Source of the DNA: Anaerolineae bacterium
Lineage (GTDB): Bacteria > Chloroflexota > Anaerolineae > S016-19
Length of the DNA: 36,813 nucleotides
Assembly (NCBI GenBank): GCA_027016315.1
Contig: JALWAP010000084.1
Location: 1 to 36,813 of the forward strand
Direction of reading: 5' to 3'
The position numbers and the translations under genes are program-made. Below, one piece after another: positions 18,890 to 36,672 of this stretch. Within the stretch, counting starts at the first letter, position 1. Every line of letters begins with the position of its first letter. The notes under the pieces were generated by a model. It did no database searches and was not told the DNA's origin. It saw only the letters and a program-made list of their open reading frames with translations.

Positions 18890-18961
18890 GCGGGTGTAGT
18901 TCAGTGGTAGAACGTCAGCTTCCCAAGCTGAATGTCGTGGGTTCGAATCCCATCACCCGCT
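18890..18961 (+). tRNA. tRNA-Gly (anticodon CCC)
   Basis: Acceptor GCGGGTG/CACCCGC; anticodon stem-loop TCAGC-TTCCCAA-GCTGA; T-arm GTGGG-TTCGAAT-CCCAT. Confidence 0.95.
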
Positions 18962-18969
18962 CTCTGCGT

Positions 18970-19043
<74 letters not shown>

Positions 19044-31239: not shown

Positions 31240-32247
31240 TTACTCCTCCTTCAAAGGCTTCACGAGTACCTTTGAGGCGAGATCGTTTCGGAGGGAGAGG
31301 GAGGAGTTCATGACCCTGTACTCCACGGGATCTCCCAGCGGAGCTTTCCTAGCGACTTCCACCACGGTGCCAGGAACGAGCCCCATGTCCAGCATCCTTC
31401 GAAGCATCTTCCCGCTTTCCTTTATCTCCTGGACGACACCCTTTTCCCCCACATTCAGCTCGCTCAGAGGAACGAGCTCCGCCGGGGCCTTCTCCACGAG
31501 CATTTTGTCCGCCAGCGAGGTGGCAAGCACGTGTCGCCTCCCGGCGCTCTCCACGAGCATCCTATCCGGCGTTCTGTGAACCACCTCCAGGTGGCTCCCC
31601 GGGGTCAGTTCCATGGCTACCAACTGGTCCACCAGCGTCTTCGGCTCGTCCTCGATCTGCACTACCTCGGCCTGCTCCCCGATCGGCCACTCGCTGAGTG
31701 GGATCCCGACTGGCGCTTCCAGGTGTCCATTCTCATCTGGAATAGGTGCGCCGTGGGGATCGTGGGTGGGGTTACCGAGCACCTCTGCGATGCGCTCCAC
31801 CTCGTCCTTGGAGACCTCGTGCTCCCGAAGGTCGGCCAGTTCGTGGACTTTGTTCAGCGGCAGATTCTCTTCCTCGGCCAGGTACTGCTCCAGTAACCGG
31901 TGCGCCCGAATGAGCTCGAGGGCGTGCCGAACGCCTCCGTCGGTTAGACGCACGCCGCCGCCTTGCCCTTCCTGCACCAGGCCCTTTTCCTTCAGCGACT
32001 CGATGGCCGGGTAAAGCAGGTAGAGGGGAACGCCGGAGACCCTGGAGAGATCGGAGACGTCCACGAACTCCCTGTCCCCATGGATGGAGTACAGGTTCTT
32101 GAGTGCGTCTTCCATGGCCACTTTGTGCGCCCTGGATATTCGCCTGCGCGCCGACCACAGCCCCTTGCCAGGCCAGAATATCCAGAGCAACAGCCCGGCG
32201 GAAAGCGCAGCCAGCGCGAGAATCAACAAGACTCCCCAATTCGGCAT
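31240..32247 (-). CDS. Membrane-anchored DtxR-like metal-responsive regulator with FeoA/SH3-like domains
   Basis: N-terminal TM MPNWGVLLILALAALSAGLLLWIFW; HTH-like region EDALKNLYSIHGDREFVDVSDLSRVSGVPLYLLYPAIESLKEKGLVQ; DtxR dimerisation/metal region HELADLREHEVSKDEVERIAEVLGNPTHDPHGAPIP; two FeoA-like segments (IPLSEWPIGEQAEVVQIED..., VPLSELNVGEKGVVQEIKESGKMLRRMLDMGLVPGTVVEVARKAPLGDPVEYRV). Confidence 0.85.
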   Translation of the reverse strand: MPNWGVLLILALAALSAGLLLWIFWPGKGLWSARRRISRAHKVAMEDALKNLYSIHGDREFVDVSDLSRVSGVPLYLLYPAIESLKEKGLVQEGQGGGVRLTDGGVRHALELIRAHRLLEQYLAEEENLPLNKVHELADLREHEVSKDEVERIAEVLGNPTHDPHGAPIPDENGHLEAPVGIPLSEWPIGEQAEVVQIEDEPKTLVDQLVAMELTPGSHLEVVHRTPDRMLVESAGRRHVLATSLADKMLVEKAPAELVPLSELNVGEKGVVQEIKESGKMLRRMLDMGLVPGTVVEVARKAPLGDPVEYRVMNSSLSLRNDLASKVLVKPLKEE

Positions 32248-32388: not shown

Positions 32389-32417
32389 TTGCCATGCCTC
32401 TAAAGACGTGGTATAGT
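32389..32417 (+). promoter_or_regulatory. Candidate rpoBC promoter TTGCCA-N17-TATAGT
   Basis: Near-consensus hexamers with 17-bp spacer, in the divergent intergenic region. Confidence 0.6.
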
Positions 32418-32473
32418 TCGCTCGTGAAATTTGCATTCTCTGTGAGAGATTGTTAAAATCAAAACTTGCGATG

Positions 32474-32505
32474 AAAGCCCCGCCTACGGTGGGTGGGGGC
32501 TTTTT
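32474..32505 (+). terminator. Intrinsic terminator/attenuator hairpin in the rpoB leader
   Basis: AAAGCCCCGCCTACGGTGGGTGGGGGCTTTTT followed by GTCGCGTTTTT; about 80 nt after the predicted TSS and 285 nt before rpoB. Confidence 0.7.

Positions 32506-32790: not shown

Positions 32791-36672
<3,882 letters not shown>

Follow-up and report, generated by a model that had tools for sequence, protein, structure and literature searches.

PgMntR (PG1044) of Porphyromonas gingivalis carries two FeoA domains and is encoded in the same operon as the Mn importer FeoB2 (PMC4805248). It forms dimers, binds three Mn(II) and two Fe(II), and requires its second FeoA domain for function; in vitro it is reported to bind its own promoter at 750-1000 nM with Mn at pH 7.5, as is the apo form, and its authors proposed a subfamily of twin-FeoA repressors (PMC4805248). 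FeoA itself interacts with the G-domain of FeoB in a nucleotide-dependent manner, stabilising the GTP state (PMC8980893), and is required for formation of the Feo complex (introduction of PMC8749426). In a survey of Feo architectures from 2022, FeoA domains joined to DtxR-type domains were taken out manually (PMC8980893).

Here we describe P0001, an intact ORF of 335 aa with the SD-like sequence AAAGGGATGG immediately 5′ of its ATG, found in a DNA stretch of 36,813 nucleotides (the window; Table 1). P0001 is probably a membrane-tethered FeoA subunit with a DtxR-derived Mn/Fe sensor, which would regulate FeoB (or Nramp) post-translationally.

Domain architecture and membrane anchor

Pfam detects the metal-binding/dimerisation domain of P0001 (Fe_dep_repr_C, 73 bits over residues 102-171, cut-off 27) and two FeoA domains (PF04023, 128 bits in all), while the N-terminal HTH (Fe_dep_repress, PF01325) stays below its cut-off of 26 with 16.7 bits. 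The NCBIfam MntR equivalog gives 125 bits against a cut-off of 350, so P0001 is a relative of MntR and not a recognised MntR. An AlphaFold2 model built with 98 family members is confident (mean pLDDT 95.7, pTM 0.83) and consists of a helix at 4-23, a long helix at 30-56, the winged helix, the dimerisation domain and two small beta barrels. Searched with Foldseek, the model matched three-domain Mn/Fe repressors (5zr6, E 1e-16).

The first-pass annotation had described the two FeoA-like domains as a duplication. Both domains stand, but not as a simple duplication. The first is the SH3-like third domain of DtxR proteins and the second alone is similar to stand-alone FeoA, which makes P0001 a DtxR protein with a fused FeoA. 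Among solved structures, the second domain is best matched by the FeoA domain of Bacteroides fragilis FeoAB (7r7b). M281, M285, M288, L317 and L319 of P0001 stand where BfFeoA has its hydrophobic clamp; the family residue at 281 is mostly E/Q.

A TM helix ahead of the HTH, also proposed at first pass, is supported by prediction. Hydropathy in P0001 peaks at 2.71 (19-residue Kyte-Doolittle mean), the helix at 4-23 is modelled with pLDDT >90, and 94 of 98 family members exceed 1.5 in their N-terminal 70 residues, compared to a maximum of at most 1.42 within the first 70 residues of the soluble DtxR relatives (n=45). More K/R follow the helix than precede it in 88 of these 94 members, and this positive-inside pattern predicts that the remaining domains face the cytoplasm, in agreement with the topology given in Table 1. 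These results support the view that P0001 has a predicted N-terminal TM helix and hence is not like the soluble DtxR proteins. Only about three residues lie N-terminal to the helix in P0001, leaving no extracytoplasmic sensor domain; a CadC/ToxR-type topology was rejected, as there is no outer domain beyond the TM helix. Membership of the family does not require the anchor, since a few relatives do without it: TM-less forms are found in L174-L178, and a TM-less homolog lies right upstream of feoB in Prevotella sp. oral taxon 299 (L196).

Table 1. Features of P0001, of the window and of loci with relatives (window positions unless a locus is named)
Feature	Residues of P0001	Position	Strand	Basis
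Whole gene P0001: TM, winged helix, metal/dimerisation, SH3/FeoA, FeoA		31240..32247	-	ORF, Pfam, AlphaFold2
TM helix, predicted N-out/C-in	4-23	32179..32238	-	hydropathy, family, AlphaFold2, charge pattern
Degenerate winged helix	42-101	31945..32124	-	Pfam score, conservation
Recognition helix and wing; soluble-DtxR-type conservation gone	75-87 and 91-100
Metal-binding/dimerisation domain	102-171	31735..31944	-	Pfam, ligand conservation
Metal ligands	H116, E120, H135, D139, E142, H143; D47 in first helix of winged helix
First FeoA domain (SH3-like third domain of DtxR proteins)		31489..31704	-	Pfam, structure match
Family-specific H-x-E-D-E-P motif (Q-I-E-D-E-P in P0001)	197-202	31642..31659	-	alignment
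Second FeoA domain, resembling stand-alone FeoA		31255..31473	-	Pfam, solved-structure match
rpoB		32791..36672	+
Element between P0001 and rpoB		32389..32498	+
Terminator-like hairpin and T run within this element		32478..32498
Two tandem tRNA genes		18890..19043	+
TM-DtxR-FeoA-FeoA-Nramp single ORF		L039:6514..8787	-
TM-DtxR-FeoA-FeoA-Nramp single ORF		L171:854..3148	+
TM-DtxR-FeoA-FeoA-Nramp single ORF		L172:1521..3854	+
Split feoB, example		L037:8968..11579
Split feoB, example		L041:134..2532
Second twin-FeoA DtxR group		L045:2683..3630
Second twin-FeoA DtxR group		L048:7794..8777
Second twin-FeoA DtxR group		L049:6081..7079

Metal site and winged helix

Five core ligands of P0001, H116, E120, H135, E142 and H143 (H79, E83, H98, E105 and H106 in DtxR), are invariant in all 98 aligned members. 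D47 is kept in 95 of 98; at position 139, 67 members have E and 18 have D. The combination of D as first ligand and D/E as second resembles the Mn-type site of BsMntR (ligands given in PMC4805248), which makes Mn(II) at least as likely as Fe(II). A lysine at the equivalent of BsMntR E11 was considered as a lost ligand and rejected, because soluble relatives carry K there too. The metal-region signature noted at first pass is indeed kept: DPHG is present, with the departure that P0001 has A167 where 97 of 98 members have D. The family has also gained the H-x-E-D-E-P motif in its first FeoA-type domain, with Q for H in P0001 only (1/98). The motif lies in the region from which the SH3 domain of DtxR contributes metal ligands.

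We compared conservation (mean Jensen-Shannon) between the family (98) and soluble DtxR relatives (45). It is alike in the metal/dimer domain (0.58 versus 0.61, p=0.15) and lower in the family for both the recognition helix (0.30 versus 0.57, p=0.0007) and the wing (0.27 versus 0.54, p=0.008). S/T occupies position 79, and K/R position 83 or 84, in all soluble proteins; in the family this holds for 19 and 44, respectively, of the 98 members. Summed over recognition helix and wing, the net charge averages +1.8 in the soluble proteins and is reversed to -0.9 in the family, and Pfam detects the HTH in 45/45 soluble relatives and 16/98 family members. The winged-helix fold itself is retained in P0001 according to the AlphaFold2 model and Foldseek. 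The loss of conservation is no proof of lost DNA binding, as operators could differ between lineages.

These data bear on the first-pass proposal of a one-component membrane transcription factor. Such a protein would still bind DNA in a metal-dependent manner and repress feoB or other metal genes, as the retained fold would allow and as the reported binding of PgMntR to promoter DNA in vitro suggests; the latter is the main evidence against the reading that we prefer. Nonetheless we consider a membrane-bound repressor quite unlikely, given a recognition helix and wing that are unconserved and on average negative, the few members with a Pfam HTH, the lack of an outer sensor domain, and the soluble DtxR protein with intact HTH that is often encoded directly upstream (see below). 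The other first-pass suggestion, a repurposed FeoA-like partner that no longer binds DNA, fits best, with relatives upstream of feoB and metal ligands kept; the first-pass reading as a whole is partly supported.

Linkage of the family to feoB and Nramp

The survey for the TM-DtxR-FeoA2 architecture established a family, with 121 distinct relatives collected from the class of P0001 and about ten other phyla, many of them from MAGs. A profile search matched about 96 of 396 sampled genomes of the class at 300 bits or more; below this score came partial copies at contig ends, and soluble relatives at about 235 bits and lower. When named genomes were scanned with the family alignment as query, this architecture turned up in records labelled Chloroflexota/Anaerolineae, Ignavibacteria, Calditrichaeota, Acidobacteriota and Gemmatimonadetes, in Verrucomicrobiota, Planctomycetota and a Myxococcales MAG, and in the Bacteroidota Maribacter, Allomuricauda, Tamlana, Arenibacter and Cyclobacterium. 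Maribacter polysiphoniae (L098) and Cyclobacterium qasimii (L121) are culturable hosts of an anchored member, from the Flavobacteriia/Cytophagia.

Automatic scoring gives feoB as the next same-strand gene for 118 of the 121 relatives. Reading of the gene listing adds L122 and L163, where feoB lies in an overlapping longer ORF, giving 120/121 in a set that, being gathered by similarity, leans to the initial feoB-linked members. P0001 is the only one without feoB next to it. The relative and feoB overlap in 77 of the 118 cases, with 4 nt as the commonest overlap; this points to translational coupling. The adjoining feoB ORF is shorter than 400 aa in 89/118, for the most part owing to a split of feoB, with separate genes for the GTPase and the channel (Table 1). 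In 34 cases the relative is immediately preceded by a gene for a soluble DtxR protein with an ordinary HTH; we count this in favour of a non-transcriptional role.

Three genomes (G031, G111 and G091) encode this N-terminal architecture in one ORF with a complete Nramp transporter, the fusion proteins being 757-777 aa long. G031 contains ambiguous bases; an assembly artefact was rejected because two further genomes show the fusion.

We also noted another group of DtxR proteins, which likewise have two FeoA domains and lack both the TM helix and the H-x-E-D-E-P motif (L045, L048 and L049). This group adjoins another feoB in L045 and L048, including in a genome of the same genus (G001). ABC-3 permeases in L044 were considered as carrying a fused winged helix and rejected, as Pfam gave ABC-3 and FecCD only.

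The feoB adjacency, the Nramp fusions, the invariant ligands, the lost conservation of recognition helix and wing and the reversed charge lead us to propose, tentatively, that this widespread family represents a DtxR fold that has left DNA and now serves as a membrane-tethered allosteric metal gauge on FeoB (via FeoA) or on Nramp (by fusion), providing immediate feedback on import. An anchored dimer would sit beside FeoB and bind Mn(II)/Fe(II) on the cytoplasmic side. Its metal state would then be passed via the FeoA domain to the FeoB GTPase, so that transport would be changed as feedback instead of transcription being repressed. Feedback inhibition of FeoB is the simplest guess for the direction of the effect.

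The same feoB linkage, together with the reported need for FeoA in forming the Feo complex, would also suit a membrane-bound FeoA protein that serves FeoB as a scaffold or in its assembly; its DtxR core would then be structural, and metal binding would have no regulatory role. We regard this as unlikely, because the five core ligands are invariant in 98/98 members across many phyla and a new acidic/His motif has been added.

A metal-gauge role would touch on two open questions, namely what FeoA does for FeoB and how FeoB shuts off at metal sufficiency. A metal sensor that is joined to FeoA and anchored, with its gene next to feoB in many phyla, provides a direct and testable answer. Where such proteins carry the annotation of metal-dependent transcriptional regulator, they may not control transcription.

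P0001 in its own genome

P0001 is the sole FeoA-domain protein and the sole DtxR-dimerisation-domain protein found in the assembly, whose completeness is estimated at 92%. The genome has one true FeoB, of 691 aa with FeoB_N, Gate and FeoB_C domains, on contig C207, where no feoA adjoins it. Mis-binning of the window was considered; C207 and the window look like the same organism in composition (tetranucleotide profile correlation 0.975, GC 0.584 and 0.588). In a tree, this FeoB (G000) clusters with feoB genes that adjoin members of the P0001 family in other genomes. The place of P0001 in the protein tree corresponds to this, although its branch is long and the fork in question has modest support. 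From the trees, and from P0001 being the only FeoA-domain protein found, we infer that it serves the FeoB of C207, its likely partner even though the two genes are unlinked here. Three Fur-family genes and one separate Nramp are also present, so other metal regulators and importers exist in the genome.

The separation from feoB, the long branch and the changes H197Q and D167A count against our preferred reading. They could mean that P0001 is decaying or neofunctionalised in its own genome and no longer does the family's job, as it alone is altered at the near-invariant H197 and D167. We judge this very improbable: the ORF, the TM helix and all core metal ligands are intact, and P0001 is the only FeoA-domain protein of a genome with an intact feoB.

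As first noted, P0001 is divergent from rpoB. A functional link was dropped because the relatives lie at feoB and not at rpoB, which makes the neighbourhood incidental. The element between the two genes holds a promoter-like site of the extended -10 type (TTGCCA-17-TATAGT with TG), and about 60 nt beyond it comes a strong hairpin that resembles a terminator. Judged by these motifs, it might produce a short transcript or an rpoB leader; it had no Rfam match and no DNA match in 20 relatives. The window also carries two tandem tRNA genes.

Comparison with known systems

P0001 shares the fold and the metal/dimer domain, ligands included, with DtxR/MntR/IdeR proteins (e.g. 5zr6, 8pvt). It differs from them in its TM helix and extra FeoA domain, and it lacks their solubility and their conserved recognition helix and wing. 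It ends in a FeoA domain, and its relatives are encoded beside feoB. However, FeoA is usually stand-alone, at about 8 kDa, or fused to FeoB, whereas P0001 combines it with an anchored DtxR-type sensor. FeoC also has a winged-helix fold. Like P0001, it is a small accessory thought to regulate Feo, and it carries a C-terminal cysteine-rich motif, both according to PMC8749426. We rejected a FeoC identity for P0001, which belongs to a different family, is without any cysteine and has DtxR-type metal sites instead.

In the literature searched (most subscription journals fell outside the search), no membrane-anchored DtxR-FeoA protein was found; neither the Nramp fusions nor an anchored form with degenerate HTH and coupling to feoB appeared there.

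PgMntR has the HTH, the metal/dimer domain and two FeoA domains in the same order as P0001. Compared by published residue numbers and spacing, 11 PgMntR ligand candidates (H85, E89, H104, C108, E111, H112, D132, H134, H166, D169 and E170) map to P0001 with a constant offset of 31. The residue is identical in P0001 at 9/11 and in the family majority at 10/11, and H166, D169 and E170 fall on the H-x-E-D-E-P motif. By this measure PgMntR seems to be a relative that lacks the TM helix, with only 18 residues before its ligand D19. It differs further in C108 versus D139 and H166 versus Q197, and it has been studied as a DNA-binding repressor. Like 120 of the 121 relatives, it is linked to feoB, sharing an operon with it, unlike P0001 in its own genome. 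The PgMntR data support the metal-binding half of our reading and speak against DNA binding having been lost altogether, at any rate in that lineage. PgMntR in turn deserves a second look as a partner of FeoB2.
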